A DNA stretch of 64,000 nucleotides, from contig NZ_JAPDHV010000002.1 of the NCBI RefSeq assembly GCF_025971925.1, positions 492,003-556,002 on the forward strand. Direction: 5' to 3'. The position numbers were made by a program, and so were the translations under genes. This DNA is from Chryseobacterium oryctis. GTDB taxonomy: Bacteria > Bacteroidota > Bacteroidia > Flavobacteriales > Weeksellaceae. Shown here in pieces: positions 744-17,531 of the stretch; position 1 is the first letter of the stretch, and every line of letters begins with the position of its first letter. Below the pieces are notes generated by a model. The model was not told the DNA's origin. It searched no databases and saw only the letters and a program-made list of their open reading frames with translations.

Positions 744-2345
744 TTATTGTTTAGTTAACAACTTTTCTAATTGCTCATTTTTTTGCTGTAATGCTTTTAT
801 TTGTTTATTGAGTTCAATAACGTGTAGATAAAGCTCTTCGATTTTTTCCATATTGGTTATTGAATTTTCCCCAACATCAATGGTCATATTGTTTTTCCTG
901 ACATCTTCAATAGAATCATAGCCAGGTAAATGTCCTTTTTCTTTTATATATTCTTCTACTTCATTCAATTGTTTGAAACTATAATTGGGGTTAATAGCAG
1001 AAGTTCCTTTATAATAGTTTTCAAACACATAATCTGGATAGTAATTCGTATTAGAAATAAATCTATCGGCTTTTGCATCACCTGCAACATGCAATTTGTA
1101 GGAAGGATTGATTAAACCTATTCCGAAATTTCCATTAGTTGCTAATATTGCCCTGTTTGTTCCCACTCCAAAAACTAATGGCCCTGAAGCTGTATTAGTC
1201 CCTACAAAAAGTTCTGTACTTCCTGTAGAGAATAATCTAGAGCTACCGTTACTTAAGAGTTCCATATCCAGCATACGGTTTGAGTTTACTAAAGCTCTTA
1301 CCATTGATGTGGAACTTCCCCTGGTAATAATCCTTGTATTTCCAGAAATTGTAGCATTAACATCAAATGCTATATGGTTATTATCATTAATAATTCCGTT
1401 TTGAAACCAAAGCATTTTTCTGTTAGTTGAAACCATTCTGTTATCAGTTAATGCTCCATCAGAATTGTAAATATTTACGCCCTGCGGAAGAGTAACGGAG
1501 CTTGAGGAAACTCCGTTTACCCTTGTTGTCAGTGTATTGCCTGAAACTGTATTGATAATACTGTTGATGATAGGCGCAGTATCTGTTACTCCGTTAACTG
1601 TGGAGGTCATAGTATTTCCTGAGCTGCTCAAAACATTTGTCGTATCAGAACCTCCTCCTCCAAGTGAGGAAATATTTACCGTGGAGGCAACTCCGTTAAC
1701 TGTACTGGTAAGATTATTTCCAGACAAGGTTAAGCTGTTGGTGGTTGCTGTTGAAATTGCAGGTGTTAAATCCAAAGAATTACTTAATACACCATTCACT
1801 ATACTAGTAATATTACTTCCAGATAAGGAAAGTGTATTGGTATTGACAACAGGTGCAGTTGCCGATACTCCATTCACTGTAGAAGTAAGTGTATTGGCTG
1901 TACTGCTTAACGCATTGGTAATGGATGTACCTTCTGATGACAGACCAAGAGGCTTCCAAGTACCTCCGTTAATGGTTCCGGATTTATTGTCATAATACCA
2001 AAACCCAGGAGCTAAGGTTCCTTGTGTAGTACCTACTCCTGCTATTCCTCCTTCTTTTATATTGTATACCACAAACCCATCATAGTAAGTAGGAAATGAG
2101 CCTGGAATACCTATCGGCACACCTCCAAAGGCTGTAAATACAGACAAATCCACTCTGGGATAAAGCAATCCTTTACCTACATTGGTGGTAGAATTATAGG
2201 TGAGATTGGAAGAAGCATCTATAAAAGCTGAACTTCCGGGAAGAGCAATGTTCAAGTTACTGTTAGCTATTCTTACCTGTGATTGGGCTATTCCGCTCCA
2301 TAGCATTCCCCCGATTAGTATAATTTGTTTTATTTCTTTTTTCAT
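744..2345 (-). CDS. Exported repeat protein with VNGV repeats and coiled-coil C-terminus
   Basis: This 533-residue protein has an N-terminal signal peptide (MKKEIKQIILIGGMLW ... AQSQ). Residues ~140-295 hold about six degenerate copies of a unit like SGNxLTSTVNGV. A SYKLHVAGDAKADRF-type segment follows, which resembles the trailer of phage tail-fibre-like exported proteins. The last ~100 residues contain PDYVFENYY, a YIKEKGHLPG motif and a heptad-rich coiled coil ending LEKLLTKQ. This tail is common on flavobacterial exported repeat proteins and may drive trimerisation. The gene lies between two near-identical paralogs (1-625 and 2381-3556) on the same strand, so it could be lost by recombination. 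It may be a surface fibre or adhesin; function is not known. Confidence 0.8.
   Translation of the reverse strand: MKKEIKQIILIGGMLWSGIAQSQVRIANSNLNIALPGSSAFIDASSNLTYNSTTNVGKGLLYPRVDLSVFTAFGGVPIGIPGSFPTYYDGFVVYNIKEGGIAGVGTTQGTLAPGFWYYDNKSGTINGGTWKPLGLSSEGTSITNALSSTANTLTSTVNGVSATAPVVNTNTLSLSGSNITSIVNGVLSNSLDLTPAISTATTNSLTLSGNNLTSTVNGVASTVNISSLGGGGSDTTNVLSSSGNTMTSTVNGVTDTAPIINSIINTVSGNTLTTRVNGVSSSSVTLPQGVNIYNSDGALTDNRMVSTNRKMLWFQNGIINDNNHIAFDVNATISGNTRIITRGSSTSMVRALVNSNRMLDMELLSNGSSRLFSTGSTELFVGTNTASGPLVFGVGTNRAILATNGNFGIGLINPSYKLHVAGDAKADRFISNTNYYPDYVFENYYKGTSAINPNYSFKQLNEVEEYIKEKGHLPGYDSIEDVRKNNMTIDVGENSITNMEKIEELYLHVIELNKQIKALQQKNEQLEKLLTKQ
1500..1925 (-). repeat. Tandem degenerate VNGV coding repeats
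   Basis: Within the exported protein at 744-2345, the DNA repeats a block coding for S-x-N-x-(L/I)-T-S-x-V-N-G-V, separated by Thr/Asn/Ser-rich linkers of variable length. About six copies can be read. They have diverged at DNA level, so this is an older internal amplification, unlike the fresh duplication of the flanking genes. Confidence 0.7.
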
Positions 2346-2380
2346 CCTTTTTAACTAAGTTATGTTAATTGTGTTTTTGG

Positions 2381-3556
2381 TTAATAGCCTGATATAATAG
2401 ACCATGGGGAGGTGGCATCACCTGTATAAATTAAAATATTACCCTGTCCCGGATAGCATAGTACATTAGATGTCTCCCTCGGTAACGGGTTAAGTTCTAC
2501 TGATGTGTCCCCTATAACAGAAATATATATTTTCTTACCTACCTGAACTCCGGTTGTCGGTAAGGTTAAAACAGGATTAAAACCGGCTACAGTAGTGTAT
2601 AAAATAATGTCATCAGTAGCCGATGCAGTATAGTTACCTGTCTGGTAAGTAACATTCATAGGAGCTGTTGTAGGAGAGGCTGTAACAGTTTTTAGTACAC
2701 CGTTGGCATCTGCCACAACATATTTGTCACCAGAAGTTCCTGTGTTGGCATTAATATCTCTGATACGTACATTACCAGAGCCTATATCTAATCGTTCAGT
2801 TGGAGCAATGGCTAGATCTGTACCAATGTTCCCATTTTTTAGGATAGTTAAAGCATTAGATCTTGCACCGTCGGCTCCATTCCCTACCTGAAGGATTGCT
2901 GTGCTTCCTGTGGTAATGGCATTAAAAGTTCCCGCTACAAATTCGGCCTTACCGCTTGCTACTGATGCCAGACCAAATGAGGCTGAATAATCACCAGAGG
3001 CTTCTACCTGAGCACCAAAGCCAACAGAGGATTCTCCTACGGAGCCTTCTGGACTGGAACCACCGCGTACAGCACCTTGTACATCTAACATAGTACCACC
3101 ACTAGTAGCAGGACCTCCATGGTTGAAGGTTTTACCAATTGCTACACTACCTCCCATATAAACGTTTTGTACATTGCTGGTAGCTCCTGTATTTGTTAGC
3201 TGGTTATACCATGGCTCGGTATCCGCTCCACCGGAACCACCGCCAGATTTTACCCAAACACTTCCATTAAAATAGTAATAACCGGGTGCATCTACATTGG
3301 CCACCTGACCGGTAAGAGAACCTGCAGCAGCATTTACATATACTAATGCTCCTGTTTGGGTAGGCGTATAGGTTTTTGCCGAAAGCTCATCTCCTGATAA
3401 ACGAGGAGCGATAATTCCATCTAATTTGGAAGTGTCTGAGGGCTTACCTACTACATCTAAGGTTGCTGCTGGTGTTAATGTGTTGATTCCAACTTGTGAG
3501 TAAGCAAGTGTGGAGAATAAAATAGTTCCTAAAATAATTACATTTTTTTTCATCAA
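2381..3556 (-). CDS. Exported 'SQVGINT' family protein (complete paralog)
   Basis: This 391-residue protein begins MMKKNVIILGTILFSTLAYS then QVGINTLTPAATLDVVGK; the second Met at 3553 is an equally good start. After the head domain come a Gly/Ser-rich linker (SGGGSGGADTEPWYN), a repeat region with alternating GSVGESSVGFGAQVEASGDY motifs as in head domains of trimeric surface fibres, then a C-terminal beta-rich domain ending SIISGY. The middle third is nearly base-identical to the partial gene at 1-625. The start is 35 bp from no other gene on its 5' side, and the next gene (744-2345) lies downstream on the same strand. No catalytic motif is visible. It is probably a cell-surface or secreted structural protein. 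Confidence 0.8.
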   Translation of the reverse strand: MMKKNVIILGTILFSTLAYSQVGINTLTPAATLDVVGKPSDTSKLDGIIAPRLSGDELSAKTYTPTQTGALVYVNAAAGSLTGQVANVDAPGYYYFNGSVWVKSGGGSGGADTEPWYNQLTNTGATSNVQNVYMGGSVAIGKTFNHGGPATSGGTMLDVQGAVRGGSSPEGSVGESSVGFGAQVEASGDYSASFGLASVASGKAEFVAGTFNAITTGSTAILQVGNGADGARSNALTILKNGNIGTDLAIAPTERLDIGSGNVRIRDINANTGTSGDKYVVADANGVLKTVTASPTTAPMNVTYQTGNYTASATDDIILYTTVAGFNPVLTLPTTGVQVGKKIYISVIGDTSVELNPLPRETSNVLCYPGQGNILIYTGDATSPWSIISGY

Positions 3557-4100: not shown

Positions 4101-5546
4101 TTAGGCGTTTGTACGATCTCTTATCCAAACAGTGAGATTATCTTGAGGAGAAATGCTTAGCCGTTTTCTGAGATTGTATTTGTTGTTTTTTATGGTTTGA
4201 ACTGCTTTAAATGTATATTGTGCAATGTCTTTTGTGTTAAATCCCAAATAAATATAGGCACACAGAATAAGTTCTGATGTCTTCAGGCTAGGATTAATCT
4301 CAAGGATTCTTTTCCGAAATTCAGGGTATATTTCCTGAAACCGCCCCCAAAATTCAGGGCTGTTGTTTTTGGCCAATTGTATGATCTCCTCGAAGGTTTC
4401 ATTGATTTTTTGTTCCAGCTCTTTTACATGATTATTTTTTTGTAAAATGGCATTATTACTTTCTTTCAGCAATAAATCTTTTTTTCTGATTTTCCTGTAA
4501 TGCAAGAAACTTAATATACTTATTATAATAATAGTTGCTAATAACAAACCTCCCCAAATATAAGACATTTTCCTTTTCGAAGCCTCACGCTGTTTTTTCT
4601 CATCCGAAACAATTTTTTTTTCGGAAGTTTGTAAAGCTATAAGGTTATTTTGGGCAAAGCTATCCTTAAGTTTTGTATACTTATGTAAATATTCGTTAGC
4701 TTTATAGACATTATTCTGTAGATTATACACATCGGCTAATCCTCTATAATTCTTCATTATATTTTTAGGTCTCTTCATTTTAACAGACAGTTCGAGAGAT
4801 TTCTCATAAAATGTCTGTGCTTTCTTATACTCCTTTTTATCTTGATAGTAACGTGCTGACATATAGTTGAATACTATATGGTCAAACATATCCGGTGATA
4901 TTTTTAAAAGATCTTCGGCTCTATCTAGGTAAAATTTTGCGGAATCCTGATTTTTCTGCAAAATAAAATAATCTATAAGATTGGTTACTTCTATTACCCT
5001 CGGCATATTCTTGTACGCTTTATGAATATAATAGTAGGATGAGTCTCTATTTTGAAGTATCCCAAAGTTGGTTACCATGTTTCCATAAATATAGTGTAGA
5101 CATTTTCGCTTTTGTGTGTTGTCTTTTATTTTTAAAGCCTCTCTTAGGGCTTTATTATAAGTTTCATTGGATTTTCCAATCAACCCCAGTTCATAATAAT
5201 TTCTTCCATAGGCAGTAAAAAACGATGATGATAATATCGGGTCATCTTTATACTCAGGATACAACACCTCTGCTTTGTCCAGATATTGTTGTTCTTCACG
5301 GTATTTCCCTAGATTATGAAGATATTGTGCAATCTGGATATATCCTCTTGCTTTGCCTTTGGCATAATTTATCTTTTCTGATAATTGTATCGTCTTTTTA
5401 CTATGCTCAATTCCTTCATATATTTTGCCTTTCTGGAGATATAAATCTTCATTTTGTAATCTATCTATTTCCACAGGAGACAACTTCTGAGAATAGGATA
5501 TACTGAATGATAACAAAAAGAAAAACAATCTCAGCTGATTTTTCAT
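4101..5546 (-). CDS. TPR / transmembrane / LuxR-like HTH regulator, copy 1
   Basis: This 481-residue protein has a signal sequence (residues 1-19, ending SYSQ). A long TPR array fills residues ~20-320. One membrane segment follows (ILSFLHYRKI region, ~328-350), then a coiled coil, then a C-terminal helix-turn-helix domain from about residue 395 (LKTSELILCAYIYLGFNTKD ... AVQTIKNNKYNLRKRLSI). The layout implies a periplasmic TPR sensor coupled through the membrane to a cytoplasmic DNA-binding domain, a one-component regulator plan common in flavobacteria. The paralog at 6070-7533 has almost the same output domain but a divergent sensor. The targets are unknown; the neighbouring exported-protein genes are the obvious candidates, by location only. 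Confidence 0.85.
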   Translation of the reverse strand: MKNQLRLFFFLLSFSISYSQKLSPVEIDRLQNEDLYLQKGKIYEGIEHSKKTIQLSEKINYAKGKARGYIQIAQYLHNLGKYREEQQYLDKAEVLYPEYKDDPILSSSFFTAYGRNYYELGLIGKSNETYNKALREALKIKDNTQKRKCLHYIYGNMVTNFGILQNRDSSYYYIHKAYKNMPRVIEVTNLIDYFILQKNQDSAKFYLDRAEDLLKISPDMFDHIVFNYMSARYYQDKKEYKKAQTFYEKSLELSVKMKRPKNIMKNYRGLADVYNLQNNVYKANEYLHKYTKLKDSFAQNNLIALQTSEKKIVSDEKKQREASKRKMSYIWGGLLLATIIIISILSFLHYRKIRKKDLLLKESNNAILQKNNHVKELEQKINETFEEIIQLAKNNSPEFWGRFQEIYPEFRKRILEINPSLKTSELILCAYIYLGFNTKDIAQYTFKAVQTIKNNKYNLRKRLSISPQDNLTVWIRDRTNA

Positions 5547-6069: not shown

Positions 6070-7533
6070 TTAGGACTCCGTTTGTTTTCTTATCCAAACT
6101 ACAATATCTTTCTGAGGCGGAATACTTAATCGTTTTCTAAGATTGTATTTGTTATTTTTTATGGTTTGTACTGCTTTGAAAGTATATTCTGCTATGTCTT
6201 TGGTATTAAACCCCAAATAAATATAGGCACACAGAATAAGTTCTGAAGTCTTGAGGTTAGGATTAATCTCAAGGATTCTTTCCCGAAATTCAGGGTATAT
6301 TTCCTGAAACCGCCCCCAAAATTCAGGGCTGTTGTTTTTGGCCAATTGTATGATCTCCTCAAAACTCTCGTTCACTTTCTGTTTAAGTGACTCTGTTTCT
6401 TCATCTTTTTCGTCAATTAAAATACTTTTTCTTTTATTTTTTTTATAATAAGTTAGCCCTAGCAACGCGACAATAATACTGACTATACTAATTCCTACAA
6501 TAATATAATACAAACGATAACGAGAGGAAAGATTCTCTTTTTCCTGCTCTTCCAAAAAATAGATTACAGATGTATCCAGTGCAGGTTGTTTAATATTACT
6601 CAAGCTGTCTTTTAAGGAAGTATGTTTATAAAAATACACTTCTGACTGCTTCTTCATTCCCATGCTATCATATGTATTAGCCATTAATTTGTATAAGATC
6701 ATTAAATCATTAGGCTGATTGAGTTGCTGAAAAATATTTTGGGCCTTGTTATAAGAATCAATAGCCTTGCTGTATTGTTTATCGGCATCGTATAAAGTTC
6801 CATACGCCCAATAAAGGCTTCCTTTCTGATAAATAAAATCGGGCCTATCTTTAATAATTTCTTCAGCCTTATGAAAATAATGTTTTGCTGAATCCGCTTG
6901 ATTTCTTATTGCATACCAATCACCAACATTTATGGTGGAACTAGGTTCTTCGGGAAGGATAATTGCAGATTTTTTTAAATAATAAAGTGAAGAATCTGGA
7001 ATCTCAGCAATATATTTACAAACAGCTTTCCGGTTATATGCATACGAAAGCATTCTTTTCTTATTCAAATCATTATCAATTTTTGATGCATACTGTATGG
7101 CTTTACTAAAGTCTTTACTTGCTCTTTCTTTAAACCCCAATACATCAAAGTTGTTTCCAAATTCAATAGCCAACCAACTTGACAAATAATAATCCTGTCT
7201 GTTATTCTCTTTATCTGCCAACTGTAAAAAACGAAGACTTTCATCGTATTTCCCAACAAGAAAAAGGACATTTGCAATGTGAATATAACCACTGACAACT
7301 CCTCTAGAATATTTAAGCTCTTTTGATCTTTCTATTAATTTTTTATTTAAGGATATAACTTCTTGGAACTTGCCTTGGCTCCTAAGGAAAGGAGTAATAG
7401 CATTTTGCAGACTGTCTATTTCACGTTCTGCATATTTTGTTTTAGTATTGGTAAATCTCGTTTGTGATGAACAGAGATTTATACCAAATAAAAAGGAAAC
7501 TACAAATAGTAATATCGGTAACTGTCTTTTCAT
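6070..7533 (-). CDS. TPR / transmembrane / LuxR-like HTH regulator, copy 2
   Basis: This 487-residue paralog of 4101-5546 has a signal sequence (MKRQLPILLFVVSFLFG...), periplasmic-type TPR units (~30-310), a membrane segment around 340-360 (YYIIVGISIVSIIVALLGLT), a short charged linker and the same C-terminal HTH domain (LKTSELILCAYIYLGFNTKD...). The last ~100 residues are nearly identical to copy 1; 78 consecutive bases (6283-6360) match 4314-4391 exactly. The TPR part is far more diverged. This suggests two regulators with different inputs and similar DNA targets. The upstream intergenic space contains no obvious promoter of the TAnnTTTG type. Confidence 0.85.
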   Translation of the reverse strand: MKRQLPILLFVVSFLFGINLCSSQTRFTNTKTKYAEREIDSLQNAITPFLRSQGKFQEVISLNKKLIERSKELKYSRGVVSGYIHIANVLFLVGKYDESLRFLQLADKENNRQDYYLSSWLAIEFGNNFDVLGFKERASKDFSKAIQYASKIDNDLNKKRMLSYAYNRKAVCKYIAEIPDSSLYYLKKSAIILPEEPSSTINVGDWYAIRNQADSAKHYFHKAEEIIKDRPDFIYQKGSLYWAYGTLYDADKQYSKAIDSYNKAQNIFQQLNQPNDLMILYKLMANTYDSMGMKKQSEVYFYKHTSLKDSLSNIKQPALDTSVIYFLEEQEKENLSSRYRLYYIIVGISIVSIIVALLGLTYYKKNKRKSILIDEKDEETESLKQKVNESFEEIIQLAKNNSPEFWGRFQEIYPEFRERILEINPNLKTSELILCAYIYLGFNTKDIAEYTFKAVQTIKNNKYNLRKRLSIPPQKDIVVWIRKQTES

Positions 7534-8480: not shown

Positions 8481-9713
8481 TTACCGCGTTTTGGGGTTGT
8501 AAGTTTGTTCAAAATATCTACCTAAACCCAGAATCTGATCTTTATCAATAGGATTAATATAATTTAGGAACATTTTTTCAGTTCCATGTCCTGTGGCATT
8601 AATCAGAAGTGAGGTAGGAATTTTACCATAAAAATTGGTAGCAAAACTTCTCCTTCCAATATGGCTGGTTAATGCTTCCCATTTTTCTATATTAAGATTC
8701 TTTACCCTGTGCCCGATTCTTTTTCTCGCTTTAATTTTTGTATCAATGTGAGCTATTTTTCCTATCTTTTTTATATTCCTGTTATAAACGTGAGGGCTTA
8801 GAGGTTTAGGAAAGTTGTTATTGTTTTTATTAATAATTTCCAGAACTATCGGATGTAGAGGAAGGAAAATATTTTTACCTGTTTTTTGTTGCGTAAAATT
8901 AATGCAAAGTTTCCCTTCGATTTCCAAAAGCTTGTCTTTAGAAAAATTCATAAAATCCGAAATTCGCTGACCTGTATAGCAACTAATGAGAAGCCAGTCT
9001 TTAGAGCTTTGTAGAGTTTCTGGGACTTTTGTATTTTTAATTCGTAGTAGCTCTTCTTCATTTAAAGTAATAAGTTCTTTTTCTTGTTTTTCTTTTTTAA
9101 ATTCAAAATTACGTATACTTGTAGCCTTACCCTGTTTTTCTATAAAATTCAAAATAGTACGGATAAATTTTAAGGTACGGAAGATGGTGGCTTCACTATA
9201 AGACTCATTTCTTCCAAAAAGCAGAAACTCTTTGGCAAAATTGTTATCAATCTTGTCTATTTTTATTTTCGACTGCAAAAAACCTTCAAAACGTTCAATG
9301 AGATTATAAAATACTTTATATCTTTTATAAGTAGAACTGCAAATTATTCCATAGCGTGTACTGATGTACTGGTCTATATAGAAAAGTAAAGAATCTTCTG
9401 AGTTCTCAAAATTATTTTGGAAGCAGATTATATTTATAATGTCTTCTATTTTTTTAGAAGTGACTTTTTTCTTTTGCAAAATAGTGCTTTCGATGTATTC
9501 CGAAAGAATTACCTTAATAGTATCTAGTTTTTTGTTTAGTAATTTATTTTTCTTTCGGTATATATTATAAGGACGTTGTTTTTCATAGTCCCATTCAGCC
9601 TTAGGGATGCCCAACTGAGTTGAAATAGTTAATCTTTCGAATCGATTGTCAATAATACATAAATCAATATTCTTATTTATTCCATTTCCAGACAACGAAA
9701 AATCAAAATTCAT
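8481..9713 (-). CDS. Tyrosine-type site-specific recombinase / integrase
   Basis: This 410-residue protein has a short N-terminal arm-type region (STQLGIPKAEWDYEKQRPYN), a SAM-like core-binding domain (~105-210) and a C-terminal catalytic domain. The active-site residues can be read: Arg in CYTGQRISD, Lys in QQKTGKN, HxxR in TSHIGRRSFATN, His in ATGHGTEKMF and the nucleophile Tyr in LNYINP. It is intact and divergent from the surface-protein operon that starts at 9999. An 18-bp inverted repeat lies in the shared upstream region, and its own likely -7 box is inside that repeat pair. It may act as an integrase of a small island, as an invertase of the adjacent promoter segment, or as both. Confidence 0.92.
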   Translation of the reverse strand: MNFDFSLSGNGINKNIDLCIIDNRFERLTISTQLGIPKAEWDYEKQRPYNIYRKKNKLLNKKLDTIKVILSEYIESTILQKKKVTSKKIEDIINIICFQNNFENSEDSLLFYIDQYISTRYGIICSSTYKRYKVFYNLIERFEGFLQSKIKIDKIDNNFAKEFLLFGRNESYSEATIFRTLKFIRTILNFIEKQGKATSIRNFEFKKEKQEKELITLNEEELLRIKNTKVPETLQSSKDWLLISCYTGQRISDFMNFSKDKLLEIEGKLCINFTQQKTGKNIFLPLHPIVLEIINKNNNNFPKPLSPHVYNRNIKKIGKIAHIDTKIKARKRIGHRVKNLNIEKWEALTSHIGRRSFATNFYGKIPTSLLINATGHGTEKMFLNYINPIDKDQILGLGRYFEQTYNPKTR

Positions 9714-9750: not shown

Positions 9751-9768
9751 TAGTCCTAATTAGACTAC
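9751..9768 (+). repeat. Left arm of an 18-bp perfect inverted repeat
   Basis: TAGTCCTAATTAGACTAC. Its exact reverse complement is at 9959-9976. It lies 38 bp upstream of the recombinase start codon. The core CTAATTAG is itself palindromic. Confidence 0.95.
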
Positions 9769-9958
9769 TTTTATGAGGCAAATATAGTAAAAAAAATTCT
9801 ATATATGTGATTAGTGTTTAAGTTGTTACCTCTGATTTTTTGTTTTTGCATAGTCTCTAGTTTTATTGATAATTATGTTATAAATGTTTATTGTTTGAAA
9901 TTATTAAATCCGCAATCATCTGCCAAATAAGTACTACAAAGTGTTGAGTTGTGAAATT
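9769..9958. promoter_or_regulatory. Candidate invertible promoter segment, 190 bp
   Basis: AT-rich, non-coding DNA bounded by the perfect 18-bp inverted repeats. It holds a consensus -7 box on the minus strand (9786-9779) pointing at the recombinase. No equally good -7 box points toward the operon at 9999. Inversion between the repeats would move the -7 box to about 9941-9948 on the plus strand, about 50 bp before the operon's first ATG. This is the layout of phase-variable promoters in Bacteroidota. Inversion itself is not visible in a single sequence. Confidence 0.5.
9779..9786 (-). promoter_or_regulatory. -7 box TATATTTG driving the recombinase
   Basis: Perfect match to TAnnTTTG followed by C on the minus strand, about 66 bp upstream of the recombinase start. 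A clear TTG at -33 is not seen, so strength is uncertain. Confidence 0.6.
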
Positions 9959-9976
9959 GTAGTCTAATTAGGACTA
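9959..9976 (-). repeat. Right arm of the 18-bp perfect inverted repeat
   Basis: GTAGTCTAATTAGGACTA, the exact reverse complement of 9751-9768, 22 bp upstream of the ATG at 9999. Its minus-strand context (TTAGACTACAATTT) recurs at 15795-15808. Confidence 0.95.
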
Positions 9977-9998
9977 CACTTACACAATTGAGCGAAAA

Positions 9999-10595
9999 AT
10001 GATAAAAAAAATACATCCTTCAATTATCATTCAGAAATGGATTTTTTTATTTCTGGTTCACGTGTGTGCCTTTGTTAAAGCTGGTAATGGCTCTGGTTTT
10101 ACAGTCTCGGGAGGTGCTGTACTGTATTTCTCCGATTCGGTTGTTTCGAAGGTTTCTCAGGAAAAGACGGCAATTTATGTGGTGGAAAATACTATAATAA
10201 CAGGTTTAGATAAATCAGTTGTTAAAATCATTCGTAAAAAAACGACTCCTTCGAAACTAAAATTGACTTCTCCACATAAGCTTCAGGAAAAATTTGTTGT
10301 TAAAGAAAAAAAGCAACCTGATATAAATAGAAAGAGTTCTGTTTCTATTTTTCCATCCGACATTTTTTTTGGTTCAGGAGCCTGGAAGTTTTTTCCCCAA
10401 TTCGTAGTTAGTAGCATTCAATTTTCCTTTAAGAAAAATATTGCCGTAAAAGCATATAATATTTTGGTAATTAATAAATACCTATCACATCCGATAGATT
10501 TTCCGTCTAAGGATGTTTTATTGTTTATAATCTTCATTTTCCTGACTGTATTTAGGTTGCGGCCTCCTCCTTATTCTAAAGGTACTATCACCTGA
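9999..10595 (+). CDS. Predicted exported / membrane protein, first gene of surface operon
   Basis: This 198-residue protein has an N-terminal hydrophobic signal (WIFLFLVHVCAFVKAGN), then a GSGFTVSGGAVLYFSDS segment, a basic middle region and a hydrophobic C-terminal segment (VLLFIIFIFLTVF) ending in a short basic, Pro-rich tail. No known domain was recognised. The GAVLYFSDS stretch suggests an extracytoplasmic domain, and the C-terminal helix could anchor it. It begins 22 bp after the right arm of the inverted repeat and is followed after about 105 bp by the large GEVED-domain protein, so it is probably the first gene of an operon whose transcription depends on the orientation of 9769-9958. 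Confidence 0.65.
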   Translation: MIKKIHPSIIIQKWIFLFLVHVCAFVKAGNGSGFTVSGGAVLYFSDSVVSKVSQEKTAIYVVENTIITGLDKSVVKIIRKKTTPSKLKLTSPHKLQEKFVVKEKKQPDINRKSSVSIFPSDIFFGSGAWKFFPQFVVSSIQFSFKKNIAVKAYNILVINKYLSHPIDFPSKDVLLFIIFIFLTVFRLRPPPYSKGTIT

Positions 10596-10700
10596 TTTTT
10601 TAGGTGATGTTTATAACAAATATTACAAAACAGGTAATCTAAGGTTTCAATTAATAAAAAAATGTAATGATGAAAAGATATTGATTAATTGAAACACAAG

Positions 10701-13700
10701 ATGATAAAAATTTATATTGACTTAAAAATGAAATTAATAAATTATACATTAATAAAACGTAGTGCTCAGCTCGTCTGTATGTGTGTCATGCTGATGATCT
10801 TTTCCTTTGTTAGGGCGCAGACGGTTCTTTCTGAGAATTTCAACTATGCACCAGGTACCCTGCTTACTTCTGCCAATTGGGTAGCTATTGCAGGTACGGG
10901 TACCAATAATGTTGCGGTTTCCAGTGGAAACCTGGCGTATGTCGGCTCTTTGGGTAACGGAATGGGAAACAAGGTTTCCATTACCAACAACGGGCAGGAT
11001 GTATACAGGTCCTTTACTGCTACCAATGCACCAATTTATTCCTCTTTAATTGTTAACGTATCAGCAGCAAATGCCACAGGGGATTTCTTTTATTCCATTG
11101 GTACTACGACAGCTCCTGCTACGACCGTGGGAGCCAAGCTGTTTATAAGAGCTAATGGTACGGGCTTTAGTTTTGGAGTACTGAGAGGAACAGGAGGAAC
11201 ACCTGTGTACGAAACAACGGTAAGGCCATTTAATACCAATATTTTGGTTGTATTAAAATATGAGGTGGTTACCGGCACAACGAATGATGGTGTAAAACTA
11301 TATGTTAATCCAGGGCCGGCAGCAGAGCCAGCGGTTGCAACAGTTGAATATACAGCAGCGGTAGGAACTGACGCTTCAAGTTTTTCTGCAGTGGCCTTAA
11401 TGCAGGGTACAGCTGTAAATGCGCCGACTCTTGAGGTGGATGGCATCCATGTAGGAAGTACCTGGAATAGTGTAATGGCTGCAGGATATGATTATGGTGA
11501 TACACCTGTTTCTTATGATAATACTAAAGATGGAGTATATGTTCCAGCAAGACACAGTCTTCTTGCTGGGCTTAGCTTGGGAAGTATAGTTCCAGATCTT
11601 GAGCTGTCTCCGCTTAGTGTAGCGGCAGGTGCGGATAATAATGGTACAAATGGTGATGGTAGTGATGAAGATGCAATTGATGTATCTGCTAATCAGATTA
11701 GGGCTGGTGTTCCTTATGTTTTAACGGTTCCAGTTACCAATCCTACTACAGCAACCAAATATTTATATGGTTGGATCGATTTTAATAACGATGGTAAGTT
11801 CCAGGCAGAAGAAGTTGCAACTACAACGTTTACAGTAACGGGAGCTACCAATAGAACCCTTACCTGGACAGCAGCACAAACAGCGACAATTGTTTCTGGG
11901 GTAACCAAACTTTATATGAGATTAAGGCTTTCAGATCGTGCTTTGGTAGATTTTACCACAGTAGCGAGCGGAGGAGCGTTAATCGATGAAAGAAGTGTAG
12001 GTAATGGAGCAGCTAGTGCAACGAATGCCTCGGATTTCAGTACGGCTTCCAATGGAGAAGTAGAAGATTATCAAATCGAAGTAGTGAATACTTTTGATTA
12101 TGGAGATGTACCTACCAGTTTTGAGAATGATAAGGACGGTAATCCTTTACCTGCATTACATGCACCACTAACAGGCTTTAGTTTAGGAAGTCTTCTGGAT
12201 GTGGAAAGTGCTCCTGCATCAGTTGTATCTCCTAATGAAAATAATACCGCAGGAGATAATGCCGACGGAACGGCAGATGAGGATGGGCTTACTGCTTTTG
12301 CAAGCGTAGATAGAGAGACGTCTTATAGTATCACAGTACCTGTGAGTATCCCTTCAACATTAGCTGGAACTAAATACTTATACGGTTGGCTTGATCTGAA
12401 TGGAGATGGACGTTTTCAAGTAGGAGAAGTGGCAACAGCAACAACAACGGCGACTTCTAATACAAATATTACCTTAACATGGACGGCGGCACAAACTGCT
12501 ACAATTGTGAATGGAACTTTGAAGATTTATTTAAGACTTAGACTTTCTAATTTAAGTTTAGTTGATTTCACAACGTCAGCAAGTGGAGGTGCTTTAATTG
12601 ATGAAAGGAGTGTGGGAAATAGCGCAACGACAGCGACTAATTCTGCAAACTCTCCTGTTGTGGCATTTGGAGAAATAGAGGATTATCAAATTCCTGTAAT
12701 CTCTACAATTAGATATAACGATGTTATACAAGGGGGAGTAACTATGATAGGGAATTCTTGGTACAGAGCTAATGCGGGAAGTACTACAGCAATAGTACCA
12801 GATGTGGATGATGATCCTACTACAACCTGGTCTACATCGGCAGATCTTATTTTACCGCCAGGATCCACCATTGAAAAAGTATTGCTGTCAGCAGAAAAAA
12901 GTGGAGCTGCTAATTTCACTTCAGTGATGCTGAAAGTTCCAGGAAGCACATCATACACTACTTTGACAGCTGCAACGAGCATAGCTAACAGAACCAACGG
13001 GTACGCACAGATGATATGGGATATTACCTCCATGATTCCTGCAAACGGATATGTAAGTACTGCGGGAGGAGGAGCTGGAGGTAGATATTTTGTGGCACAG
13101 CCTACTCCGGCGCCAGCTTATATTTATATGGGAGGATGGTCGATGATTGTTGTTTATAAAAATGCCAACTCTAAATATAGACACGTTTTGGTAACAGACT
13201 CCTGGCAGATTTCTCCCCCTACAACTATTACAAAGGTTGTTTCTGGGGTGAAAATTCCAGCTTCAGGTACCGTAAAGGGAGTAATAGGAATAACGGGAAC
13301 TTATGGTGACAGACCCGGGGCAGATTATCTGAGGTTTGGTAAAGTAGGCACTACATTAACAAATCTGAAAGACCCTATGACAGGATCGACTACTGATGTA
13401 ATGAATAGCTCTATTGCATGGGCTGTCAATAATAATGTATCGGCAGACGGAGGCCCAGCAATTTCTGGAAACTATACGGCACGTAATCCGATAAGCCAGT
13501 GGAATTGGGGGGATGGTCCAGCAGAAAGTTATGACTTTGATGCAGATATTTTTGATATCACAGGAATTCTTGCCCCTTCCTCAACCCCTGTTGATGTAGT
13601 TTTTGAACAATATGGATCGGGAGATGTTGTGGTAAGTGGGTCTTACTTTATATCAATAGATGTGGCAACCCCTCCAGTATTAACAAAAAACTTATCTGTA

Positions 13701-14432
13701 AATTCCATACCAGATGGAGGTATTACCTCTTATATATGGACGGTTACCAACAATGCGGCAGATGCTGTTTTTCAATCAATTGATTTTACGGATAATCTTC
13801 CAAGCAGTATAAAAGTTGCGGCTGTGCCTAATGCTTCTATTACTGGTGGCACAGGTGGAGTTGTAACTGCTGATCCTAACACTGGGCATGTTACGGTTTC
13901 AGGATTGCTGCTTAACCCAGGAGAAAGTGCAACTATTACTGTGGATATAACAAACGTATCTGGTGAGCTTAATGTGTCGTGTACAACCAATCCTTCTGCT
14001 TTTACAAACGGCTCTTCAAATATTACCATTCCGCAAGGTGGTATTCTTAATACCACCACCATTGTTCCACAATGTCTTATTGTGACTGATGGTACAGCAT
14101 ATTGTTACAAACCAGGGCTTACAGGGGGTACCTTACTGGATAGTAAAGTAGGTATTACCTCACTAAGCAGAGCGGGTATAGCCGACCCGGATAATTGGCC
14201 GATGGTTCGTAAAGGAGCATGGATGGTGCTTGAATCTAAAACTAAAGGATTTGTAGTAAACCGTGTTGCCTTTAATGCATCCAATGAACCAGTAGGAATT
14301 CCCCCATCTAATTTTGTTGAAGGTATGCTGGTGTACGATATAACCAACAACTGTCTGAAGATGTATACATCCACAGATGGAGGAGCTACCTTTAGTTGGC
14401 AGTGTTTGAATACTCAGGCATGTCCTGATTAA
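10701..14432 (+). CDS. Large exported GEVED-domain surface protein
   Basis: About 1243 residues from ATG at 10701; ATG at 10728 gives an even tidier signal peptide (core VCMCVMLMIFSFVRA, then QT). Order: a lectin/jellyroll-like N-terminal region (~45-250); two GEVED repeats, each starting (Y/F)DYGD(T/V)P and ending GE(V/I)EDYQI(E/P)V, with a YLYGWxDxNxDGxFQ motif between; a large beta-rich region containing NSWYRAN and NWGDGPAESYDFDADIFD; a DUF11-like segment (LTKNLSVNSIPDGG); and a C-terminal domain (GMLVYDITNNCLKMYTST) found on related exported proteins. No type IX sorting signal is evident at the end (NTQACPD). The gene is visibly less AT-rich than its neighbours. It is probably an adhesin or other surface structure. 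Confidence 0.85.
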   Translation: MIKIYIDLKMKLINYTLIKRSAQLVCMCVMLMIFSFVRAQTVLSENFNYAPGTLLTSANWVAIAGTGTNNVAVSSGNLAYVGSLGNGMGNKVSITNNGQDVYRSFTATNAPIYSSLIVNVSAANATGDFFYSIGTTTAPATTVGAKLFIRANGTGFSFGVLRGTGGTPVYETTVRPFNTNILVVLKYEVVTGTTNDGVKLYVNPGPAAEPAVATVEYTAAVGTDASSFSAVALMQGTAVNAPTLEVDGIHVGSTWNSVMAAGYDYGDTPVSYDNTKDGVYVPARHSLLAGLSLGSIVPDLELSPLSVAAGADNNGTNGDGSDEDAIDVSANQIRAGVPYVLTVPVTNPTTATKYLYGWIDFNNDGKFQAEEVATTTFTVTGATNRTLTWTAAQTATIVSGVTKLYMRLRLSDRALVDFTTVASGGALIDERSVGNGAASATNASDFSTASNGEVEDYQIEVVNTFDYGDVPTSFENDKDGNPLPALHAPLTGFSLGSLLDVESAPASVVSPNENNTAGDNADGTADEDGLTAFASVDRETSYSITVPVSIPSTLAGTKYLYGWLDLNGDGRFQVGEVATATTTATSNTNITLTWTAAQTATIVNGTLKIYLRLRLSNLSLVDFTTSASGGALIDERSVGNSATTATNSANSPVVAFGEIEDYQIPVISTIRYNDVIQGGVTMIGNSWYRANAGSTTAIVPDVDDDPTTTWSTSADLILPPGSTIEKVLLSAEKSGAANFTSVMLKVPGSTSYTTLTAATSIANRTNGYAQMIWDITSMIPANGYVSTAGGGAGGRYFVAQPTPAPAYIYMGGWSMIVVYKNANSKYRHVLVTDSWQISPPTTITKVVSGVKIPASGTVKGVIGITGTYGDRPGADYLRFGKVGTTLTNLKDPMTGSTTDVMNSSIAWAVNNNVSADGGPAISGNYTARNPISQWNWGDGPAESYDFDADIFDITGILAPSSTPVDVVFEQYGSGDVVVSGSYFISIDVATPPVLTKNLSVNSIPDGGITSYIWTVTNNAADAVFQSIDFTDNLPSSIKVAAVPNASITGGTGGVVTADPNTGHVTVSGLLLNPGESATITVDITNVSGELNVSCTTNPSAFTNGSSNITIPQGGILNTTTIVPQCLIVTDGTAYCYKPGLTGGTLLDSKVGITSLSRAGIADPDNWPMVRKGAWMVLESKTKGFVVNRVAFNASNEPVGIPPSNFVEGMLVYDITNNCLKMYTSTDGGATFSWQCLNTQACPD

Positions 14433-14513
14433 TAAATAATGTAAACCTTAAGCAAAAGTGAAAAGTTTATTGAGTAGCTTTTGCTTACAGGTTTAAATAT
14501 AAAAATCAAGAAA

Positions 14514-15020
14514 ATGAAAAAAATAATAGCGCTTATCACATTATTCGGTATGGCTTTCTTGCATGGGCAGGTGGCTATTGGTAAAACAGCGGTAAGTAAC
14601 CCTTCTGTGTCTTTGGAGTTTTCCGACAGCGAGGGCAGGGGTCTTGTGCTCCCTTACATAGAAGACAGTAGCGGAATTACGGAAAACGGAACGGTAATCT
14701 TCGATGTAGCAGATAAGAAAGTGAAATACCTGAAAGGAGGAAGTTGGTTTGATCTGAGTGTAGATGGAACAGGCGTTGTAGACTTGTCTATACAGAGCTC
14801 CAAAACAGAAAAGTCTGAGGCGAAAGTGAGCATAGGCATACCAACATCTGTAGATGGGATTTTGGTTCTGGAGGAAAGCAACAAGGCGATGATTCTTCCT
14901 AAGGTAGCCAGCCCCCATTTAAATATTGTGAATCCTGCGCCAGGAATGATGGTGTATGATACTATAGCAAGGCAGCTTGCGGTATACAATGGTACAGTAT
15001 GGTCTTATTGGAAGCCGTAA
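14514..15020 (+). CDS. Small exported protein, operon partner of GEVED protein
   Basis: 168 residues from ATG at 14514; an in-frame ATG at 14481 would put 11 extra residues before the signal peptide MKKIIALITLFGMAFLHGQ and is less likely. The mature part starts VAIGKTAVSNPSVSLEFSD, a shortened version of the SQVGINT head. It ends with GMMVYDTIARQLAVYNGTVWSYWKP, which parallels the C-terminal GMLVYDITNNCLKMYTSTDG of the large protein just upstream. It therefore looks like a stand-alone version of the same C-terminal module. It lies 81 bp downstream of the GEVED gene on the same strand. Function unknown; co-assembly with the large protein is plausible. Confidence 0.75.
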   Translation: MKKIIALITLFGMAFLHGQVAIGKTAVSNPSVSLEFSDSEGRGLVLPYIEDSSGITENGTVIFDVADKKVKYLKGGSWFDLSVDGTGVVDLSIQSSKTEKSEAKVSIGIPTSVDGILVLEESNKAMILPKVASPHLNIVNPAPGMMVYDTIARQLAVYNGTVWSYWKP

Positions 15021-15158: not shown

Positions 15159-15584
15159 ATGCTCAACAATTTTAAGGATATTCATATAGGCTCGTTGATT
15201 AAGCAACGGGTAAAGGAGCTTAATGTAGAAACGCTGCGTATATGTAATTTCATGAAATGTAATGAACATGTACTGCAAGAAATGTTTTTACAAAAAGATA
15301 TGAACACAGATGTTTTGCTGAAATGGAGTAAGCTGCTGGAATATGATTTTTTCAGGTTTTATACTCAGCATCTGATTTTATTTGCTCCGCCTTTATCCAG
15401 AAACCTAAAAAAAAATAAAACGATGCTACCGAAATTCAGAAAAAATATTTATACAAGAGAAATAATAGATTTTGTTTTGGAACTTATCAATACGGGGGAA
15501 AAGACTAAGCAGCAAATTATTGAAGAATATAGGATTCCCAAAACAACGCTTTATAAATGGGTGTCAAAATATGACGATAAATAG
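15159..15584 (+). CDS. Small helix-turn-helix protein
   Basis: This 141-residue protein has a C-terminal HTH, TGEKTKQQIIEEYRIPKTTL then YKWVSKY, resembling the N-terminal DNA-binding part of IS3-type transposase OrfA and of small HTH regulators. The N-terminal ~80 residues (IGSLIKQRVKELNVETLRIC...) also look helical and may be a second HTH of the XRE type. There is no signal peptide and no catalytic domain, so it is more likely a regulator than a transposase. It closes the surface-protein cluster. The gene at 17211-17531 has a similar C-terminal HTH (LSRNTISKWKKNF). Confidence 0.7.
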   Translation: MLNNFKDIHIGSLIKQRVKELNVETLRICNFMKCNEHVLQEMFLQKDMNTDVLLKWSKLLEYDFFRFYTQHLILFAPPLSRNLKKNKTMLPKFRKNIYTREIIDFVLELINTGEKTKQQIIEEYRIPKTTLYKWVSKYDDK

Positions 15585-15856: not shown

Positions 15857-16558
15857 ATGAAAAAACAAATTTTATTACTAGCAGGGATAACTATTTTCCC
15901 TATAGCAACTTTCTCTCAGGTTGGGGTTAATACTGTCACTCCTCAGAAGACACTACATGTTAATGGTTCTATACAGCTAACCAATGAATTGAATGTTGGA
16001 GGAAATTCTAATACAGCTGGGAATGCTGGTGCCTTGGGACAAATACTCACTTCTAATGGTCCAAATGTTGCTCCTAGCTGGGCTAATATTGGCTCAATTA
16101 TAAGTGGGCTTGTTTCTAACGTATATTATTTTCAGGGCACATCAACTGTAAATGTTAATGCTGGGCAAACGGCTGATGTGCCAGGATTGGTATTTACCCA
16201 TACTGTTCCTGCTGGAAGAACTCAAACACTTTTGTTTTCAATTCTAGGATATGTGGGATCCACGGCTGTGACAGGTACGGCAACACAAGGAGTGTTTATA
16301 TTACTACAAGATAATGTAAAAATATCTTCGGCGTATGTATCGAAAGTGGGAAATGGTGGAGGGTTACTTGATTTACCTGTCCCTGTAACATTTTTAAAAG
16401 CTGTCACTTTGTCAGAAGGGACGTACACTTTTAAAGTGCAATTTAAAGCATGGTCTGGTTCCCAAGCAGTAAATGTTATTCCAACTACTTATGTCGGATA
16501 TGATGGGGATACTGAAAGTATGCTTTCAAAGATGCAGGTATTGATTTATAATAACTAA
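15857..16558 (+). CDS. Exported 'SQVGVNT' family protein
   Basis: This 233-residue protein has signal peptide MKKQILLLAGITIFPIATFS, then QVGVNTVTPQKTLHVNGSIQ, the family head motif, and a GALGQILTSNGPNVAPSWA linker typical of flavobacterial exported proteins. The C-terminal ~150 residues form a predicted beta-sandwich (VFTHTVPAGRTQTLLFSILG, then FILLQDNVKISSAYV...). No catalytic residues are seen. It stands alone, preceded by the third copy of the 18-bp repeat motif. It may be another surface component of this accessory region. Confidence 0.8.
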   Translation: MKKQILLLAGITIFPIATFSQVGVNTVTPQKTLHVNGSIQLTNELNVGGNSNTAGNAGALGQILTSNGPNVAPSWANIGSIISGLVSNVYYFQGTSTVNVNAGQTADVPGLVFTHTVPAGRTQTLLFSILGYVGSTAVTGTATQGVFILLQDNVKISSAYVSKVGNGGGLLDLPVPVTFLKAVTLSEGTYTFKVQFKAWSGSQAVNVIPTTYVGYDGDTESMLSKMQVLIYNN

Positions 16559-17070: not shown

Positions 17071-17195
17071 TTTACAATTCTCATCCTCCAGTCTCCATAT
17101 TCCTAAGAACCAACTAATGGACAATATAATGATAATGAACAATTGCTCTCCAACACAATTGATAGTCAGAATGGCTAGAGGATGAGAATTGTAAA
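17071..17195. mobile_element. MITE-like element with 18-bp perfect terminal inverted repeats
   Basis: TTTACAATTCTCATCCTC (17071-17088) is the exact reverse complement of 17178-17195, enclosing 89 bp without coding capacity. ATAA occurs on both outer sides (17067-17070 and 17196-17199) and could be a target-site duplication, although this is weak in AT-rich DNA. It ends seven bases before an in-frame ATG of the HTH gene, so it must lie in that gene's promoter or 5' UTR. It could alternatively be an invertible switch or a long regulatory hairpin. Confidence 0.6.
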
Positions 17196-17210
17196 ATAAA
17201 TATGATAGTT

Positions 17211-17531
17211 ATGAAGAATTTATCACCCAACTATAAACTTATATATGAAGATATGATTTCAAGGAAATATCCGCATAAGAAAAGTGATTGTGAAAGTATT
17301 CTCAAGAAAAAAAAGTTGACAATTTTAGATATAATAAAATTGAATAATATTATAGTCAACGGTGCGGACGAAGATGGACGTGTTCTTAATCAAAGACTTC
17401 GCTCCTACGATAAAAAGACAATCCTTAAAATCTTACACTATCAAAAAGAAAATAAACTCAATAATACTGAGCTGGCTAATGAATTTAAGCTGAGTAGAAA
17501 TACAATTTCCAAGTGGAAAAAAAATTTTTAG
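17211..17531 (+). CDS. Small helix-turn-helix protein next to inverted-repeat element
   Basis: This 106-residue protein starts at ATG 17211 (MKNLSPNYKLIYEDMI); an in-frame ATG at 17202 would add three residues. It has a C-terminal HTH, NNTELANEFKLSRNTISKWK, preceded by an alpha-helical region. There is no transposase catalytic domain. Proteins of this size and style are common in Chryseobacterium genomes and are usually annotated only as HTH-domain proteins; that comes from memory. It begins immediately after the MITE-like element, which probably supplies or disrupts its promoter, and a terminator follows at 17683. Confidence 0.7.
   Translation: MKNLSPNYKLIYEDMISRKYPHKKSDCESILKKKKLTILDIIKLNNIIVNGADEDGRVLNQRLRSYDKKTILKILHYQKENKLNNTELANEFKLSRNTISKWKKNF

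Follow-up and report, generated by a model that had tools for sequence, protein, structure and literature searches.

Comparative evidence for a probable recombinase-flipped promoter of secreted-protein genes in Chryseobacterium oryctis, with a predicted arrest leader as the first gene behind it

Introduction

Phase-variation switches in which a tyrosine recombinase inverts a regulatory segment are known from several bacterial lineages. In Bacteroides fragilis the tyrosine recombinase Tsr19 (BF2766) lies next to the local invertible promoter IVp-I, which carries a TAnnTTTG -7 box and controls extracellular polysaccharide and outer-membrane protein genes; Tsr19 additionally inverts a distant promoter, and locked mutants show the function (PMC4747536). 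IVp-I is mostly OFF in culture and in a majority of tested human faeces, and this bias vanished when the recombinase was supplied from a plasmid. Collections of gut Bacteroidota invertons likewise contain segments between short inverted repeats near surface genes and recombinases, with invertase genes reported as generally not regulatable by inverton promoters, save for one possible exception group (PMC11892184). RecV-type switches (PMC5903667) also have a tyrosine recombinase that inverts a regulatory segment, in other phyla and at other sites. Another layer of control is provided by the RAPP-like arrest peptides (SecM, ApdA, ApdP and the RQH family), which are small secretory proteins with a dissimilar N-terminal part and a short C-terminal Arg-x-Pro-Pro-like motif that is avoided elsewhere in proteomes, encoded upstream of a regulated gene (PMC10987492; PMC12992588).

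Here we analyze a 64,000-nucleotide stretch of the C. oryctis genome (GCF_025971925.1, contig NZ_JAPDHV010000002.1, positions 492,003 to 556,002 of the forward strand; hereafter the window), in which a first-pass annotation had proposed an invertible promoter between a tyrosine recombinase and an operon for exported proteins, with paired operators or recombinase-binding sites as the competing idea. Our comparative analysis confirms the observation and supports the proposal of an invertible promoter, although the first gene of the operon is probably a regulatory arrest leader rather than a surface protein.

Anatomy of the locus

An exact 18-bp inverted repeat (9751-9768 and 9959-9976) encloses a non-coding interior of 190 bp (9769-9958; 24% G+C). 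Within the window the only perfect inverted repeats of 16 bp or more with a 20-500 bp loop are this one and a second of 18 bp with an 89-bp loop (17071-17088 and 17178-17195), which ends 6 bp before a gene for a 109-aa protein and whose arms lack the form described below. In contrast, 0 of 200 dinucleotide-preserving shuffles of the window gave a repeat of 18 bp or more, and 3 of 200 gave one of 16 bp or more; thus, chance is a poor explanation. Each repeat is itself a near-palindrome of the form AGTC-N7-GACT, i.e. two short inverted arms around a 7-bp spacer, as in a recombinase core site (AGTC-CTAATTA-GACT at 9752-9766, with the inverted copy carrying the identical spacer). These two are the only exact copies with this spacer in the 3.5-Mb assembly.

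On one side lies a divergent tyrosine recombinase of 410 aa (8481-9713, minus strand) with the Phage_int_SAM_5 and Phage_integrase domains, recovered above the Pfam cut-offs. Its residues R250, K277, H351, R354, H376 and Y385, which likely include the catalytic positions of the family, are invariant in 11 aligned relatives. Farther out on the minus strand are two TPR proteins with similar C-termini (4101-5546 and 6070-7533), with exported proteins beyond them (744-3556), one of which is of the QVGINT type. A Bacteroidota -7 box, TATATTTG, lies inside the segment at 9786-9779 (minus strand) and faces the recombinase. No exact TAnnTTTG points from the segment toward the operon, where the best match near the right end has 4 of 6 letters, and the inner box has no TTG at the -33 distance tested. 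In-silico inversion places this box at 9941-9948, 50 bp before the ATG at 9999. A second TATATTTG at 9740-9733 (minus strand) lies outside the segment, also faces the recombinase, and would not move on inversion.

The operon on the other side (all plus strand) begins with a 198-aa gene (9999-10595), discussed below. It is followed by a large exported protein with two stretches of GEVED domains and a DUF7933 domain (10728-14432; the frame runs from 10689, with the ATG at 10701 or 10728), a small exported protein of the AIGK...WSYWKP type (14481-15020), a 141-aa protein with an HTH_7-like C-terminus (15159-15584; 22.5 bits, below the cut-off of 23.8), a 233-aa exported protein of the SQVGVNT type (15857-16558), and the above-mentioned 109-aa protein, which by eye has an HTH-like C-terminus (17202-17531). 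The 141-aa and 109-aa proteins belong to sets of 8 copies each in the genome, and their homologs occur downstream of 44 and 39, respectively, of the 89 rows with a switch described in the next section, those of the former all in this direction. In Sphingobacterium loci the first genes are instead mostly small peptides and receiver- or HTH-like proteins, as judged by eye.

Matched spacers and concerted change of the sites

We collected relatives of the recombinase and examined the DNA upstream of each, choosing sites by their arms only; a preliminary scan that had used spacer agreement in choosing pairs was not relied upon for this count. Loci more than 97% identical over 240 bp were merged, and 11 loci with less than 420 bp upstream were dropped, including one (L111) with a perfect pair. 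Of the 93 remaining rows, 89 carry an inverted pair with at most 2 arm mismatches of 16, and 76 of the 89 have none. Two loci, L014 and L160, enter these 89 rows twice because their recombinases are in pieces and the pair of L033 is spurious (5 spacer mismatches, although a true single site is present), so there are 87 distinct loci. The spacers come in 48 kinds, yet the two spacers of a locus are identical in 86 of 89 rows, against a mean of 3.7 and a maximum of 11 in 2000 trials in which the partners were re-dealt. The exceptions are L033, L040 (one mismatch) and L177 (two mismatches and a short segment). L062, L116, L125 and L033 have no credible pair, with L062 and L125 each having a single exact site.

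Between recombinases that are 99% (L069, L081), 96% (L042, L159) or 82% identical the spacer can differ, but then it does so in both sites alike, although 38 of 41 recombinase pairs at 90% identity or more keep the same spacer. The nearest orthologous locus (L160; G177:C1:987300-995500), whose surface protein is 72% identical to that of the window over 849 residues, has CTAACTA in both sites where the window has CTAATTA. Strand exchange requires matched spacers and explains this pattern, whereas operators need conserved contacts rather than a spacer that varies among loci, matches exactly within a locus and changes in both sites together. The alternative of paired operators, at which the recombinase or another protein loops DNA to autorepress without inversion, can draw on the position of the sites, which are inferred to overlap the transcription start expected for the inner promoter and the -33 region of the outer box, on the distance between sites, often 203-220 bp, and on the mostly uniform orientation of the segment. 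Given the spacers and the reversed segments described below, we consider it very unlikely, although autorepression may still come on top of inversion.

In a tree of 131 sequences (86 rows of the pair-bearing list and 45 others) all 86 pair-bearing rows fall in one clade with only three others, L062, L116 and L125 (support 0.774; 1.0 with the viral neighbor L252 added). Nineteen more distant homologs (L015-L030 and L043-L045; at most 41% identical) have no pair. The alternative of a mobile element was rejected: the 10 matching plasmid records are at most 34% identical, and the 23 viral-contig relatives are at most 41% identical and lie outside the site-bearing clade, L252 being its nearest neighbor. 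The clade is patchy, with a phylum-wide sample recovering it at E 1e-110 in 3 of 395 genomes, all of this genus and one of them that of the window. Among the best 80 of 354 relatives, however, it is found in Chryseobacterium, Empedobacter, Elizabethkingia, Epilithonimonas, Sphingobacterium, Mucilaginibacter, Mesonia and others.

Several genomes hold more than one copy of the system, with a record of seven recombinases in the Chryseobacterium potabilaquae contigs: five with complete site pairs and five different spacers, one with a single site (L033) and one cut off by the contig end (L041). This multiplicity might point to integron- or shufflon-like integration or exchange of DNA cassettes between loci, as might the shared spacer of the two copies in one genome (G200). 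However, the spacers differ between loci in 11 of 12 genomes examined with two or more pairs, only two matching exact sites exist in the genome of the window, and the interior is a ~200-bp promoter region without genes, making this alternative very unlikely. Different spacers could instead explain how several such systems coexist without cross-talk.

Orientation of the segment

The -7 box sits just inside the recombinase-side site and faces the recombinase in 56 of 62 loci, after near-duplicates had been removed and seven loci without it (L071, L072, L074, L082, L084, L113, L124) had been set aside. In the larger set it faces only the recombinase in 74 of 89 rows and only the operon in 4 (L071, L072, L177, L178), while 11 are ambiguous, among them L113 with a 5-of-6 match toward the operon. 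Two further lines of evidence do not rest on the box. First, the L071 segment, from C. luteum, aligns on the opposite strand with L006 (75% over 88 bp, E about 1e-11), L058 and L064, and that of L178 does so with L002 and L156. Short reverse alignments also occur between loci not read as reversed, in 5 of 8 cases in the first comparison, mostly over a self-complementary palindrome, and in 1 of 5 in the second (L059/L076). Second, this palindrome, near ATTGATTTGTAAATCAAT, begins 33-34 bp from the far site with at least 16 of 24 consensus letters in 18 of 80 loci (e.g. L002, L011, L040 and L082), at the end opposite the promoter, and is a possible accessory or regulator binding site. In L072, L177 and L178 it lies at the recombinase end. 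Its consensus was written from some of the same loci that it then scored, and in the window the palindrome is degenerate. Taken together, we conclude that the segment has inverted as a whole in nature; orientation is not fixed across species.

The skew toward the state seen in the window is strong (72 loci to 4 after removing the two counted twice), but is not corrected for relatedness and may reflect growth in culture; many loci could be locked or very slow. A related possibility is that the switch of this strain, though formerly active, is now essentially frozen OFF, with inversion maintaining the sites only on an evolutionary time scale. In addition to the skew, this would be consistent with the decay of L160, where the recombinase frame is interrupted, the leader frameshifted and the surface gene in two pieces while the sites and the RPPP motif persist. 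We regard it as unlikely, since in the window the recombinase frame is intact with the conserved residues, the sites are perfect and the operon frames are intact.

A second TAnnTTTG outside the segment, 26-28 bases from the inner edge of the site, occurs in 20 of 62 loci, against a mean of 2.8 and a maximum of 8 in shuffles of that stretch. In the reversed loci the exact box is absent, though a 5-of-6 form, TAAATTCG, can be read near that place in L071, L177 and L178.

We therefore propose, with high confidence but from comparative sequence evidence without read data for this strain, that the locus is a phase-variation switch, wherein the recombinase is inferred to bind the two sites, exchange strands within their matched spacers and invert the intervening DNA. 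In the assembled orientation the predicted promoter of the segment faces the recombinase and the operon lacks a recognizable promoter (OFF); after inversion the same predicted promoter would lie before the first ATG of the operon (ON), while the fixed promoter-like box may keep the recombinase expressed in both states.

A predicted arrest leader as the first gene

Unexpectedly, the 198-aa product of the first gene, which has no Pfam or NCBIfam match at E 0.001, combines a hydrophobic N-terminus and a variable middle with a C-terminal RPPP (codons at 10560-10571). Taking first genes by position and length alone (130-260 aa, starting less than 60 bp after site 2), 14 of 23 rows end in RPPP plus a short tail; the other nine are an SQVGIN-like exported protein (L057), receiver- or HTH-like proteins (L110, L112, L119, L122, L127) and frameshifted genes (L156, and L160 twice). 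A scan for ATG-started frames found RPPP near the end in 18 of 89 rows, i.e. 17 of 87 distinct loci: 14 intact first genes of 180-252 aa, L059 farther downstream, and L156 and L160, where a frameshifted gene keeps the motif. L042 has it with a non-ATG start and was missed by that scan. Some of these proteins form small related groups (L177/L178 at 79%; L007, L008 and L035 at about 30%), but the leader of the window matches no other at E below 0.05.

Nineteen non-redundant proteins, picked for RPPP, align by eye at the hydrophobic N-terminus, weakly around IYIxxGT, and at RPPP, which is followed by 2-28 residues; their secretory nature was likewise judged by eye. All six Arg codons occur among them and the Pro codons vary, so the peptide is what is kept. 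In the genome of the window, all 26 matches to a pattern covering every RPPP codon were decoded, of which 17 read RPPP and 9 SPPP. Only 3 of the 17 lie in frames of 190 aa or more, all three of this type, with the rest in frames of at most 108 aa, some beside masked bases. In two relatives 23 matches, with CGN arginine codons only, fell in no frame longer than 112 aa. The other two leaders of this genome also head operons: one (L234; G000:C18:353180) precedes proteins of 554, 664, 186, 989 and 180 aa, and the other (L235; G000:C22:124355) proteins of 472 and 217 aa, the 554-aa and 472-aa ones being exported. Proteins similar-looking, by eye, to the small exported protein at 14481-15020 follow the large proteins in both. 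Neither 14-kb stretch has an exact switch site, but a palindrome, TCTCCTATTTAGGAGA, lies just before the L235 leader.

RPPP gave the strongest stalling of the XPPP series in one E. coli reporter and clustered with strong stallers overall, but such stalling was measured against or without EF-P, which relieves it (PMC4176338), whereas RAPP and RGPP are refractory to EF-P (PMC10987492; PMC12992588). RPPP is included in a list of RAPP-like motifs, but most of the tested E. coli and B. subtilis proteins with such motifs did not stall efficiently; the same study describes Bacteroidota-only arrest peptides with other C-terminal motifs (PMC10987492). The first gene is probably, by inference from sequence alone, a secretion-sensing arrest leader. 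Predicted RNA structure between leader and second gene gave no uniform signal (mean folding z -1.17 over 19 loci, from -4.0 to +1.0): in the window a hairpin is weakly predicted over the stop codon of the leader (10586-10609; region z -1.48), and an inverted repeat or hairpin lies just before the second gene (10637-10702; arms 10637-10658 and 10681-10702). A more tentative reading is that of a two-tier gate on surface display, in which DNA inversion decides whether the operon is transcribed, and the leader, by stalling ribosomes at RPPP, then decides according to the state of protein export whether the large surface protein behind it is made. If so, RPPP leaders would be a new Bacteroidota class of arrest peptide controlling surface-protein operons, not export machinery.

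Comparison with known systems

Recombinase-driven promoter inversion is itself known. The clade, its spacer rule, the recombinase-facing promoter on the segment and the RPPP leader appear in none of the literature we consulted, which excluded most subscription papers; this includes work on RPPP in translational arrest. The findings extend such inversion from gut Bacteroides to the above clade, with a simple sequence rule, AGTC-N7-GACT pairs with matched spacers, by which switches can be sought in any genome. As with Tsr19 and IVp-I, a tyrosine recombinase lies next to a probable invertible promoter with a TAnnTTTG -7 box, for surface genes and mostly in the OFF state. Only one exact site pair is found in the genome of the window, and the genes behind it encode secreted proteins following an RPPP leader. 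In relation to the gut inverton collections, the box of the segment faces the recombinase gene in most rows of this clade, contrasting with the invertase genes reported there as generally not regulatable by the inverton. Finally, the leader resembles the RAPP-like arrest peptides in size, predicted secretory nature, general lack of sequence similarity and position upstream of a potentially regulated gene, but differs in having RPPP instead of RAPP, RGPP or RAGP, in preceding exported proteins rather than sec or yidC genes, and, in the window, in lying behind a probable DNA inversion switch.
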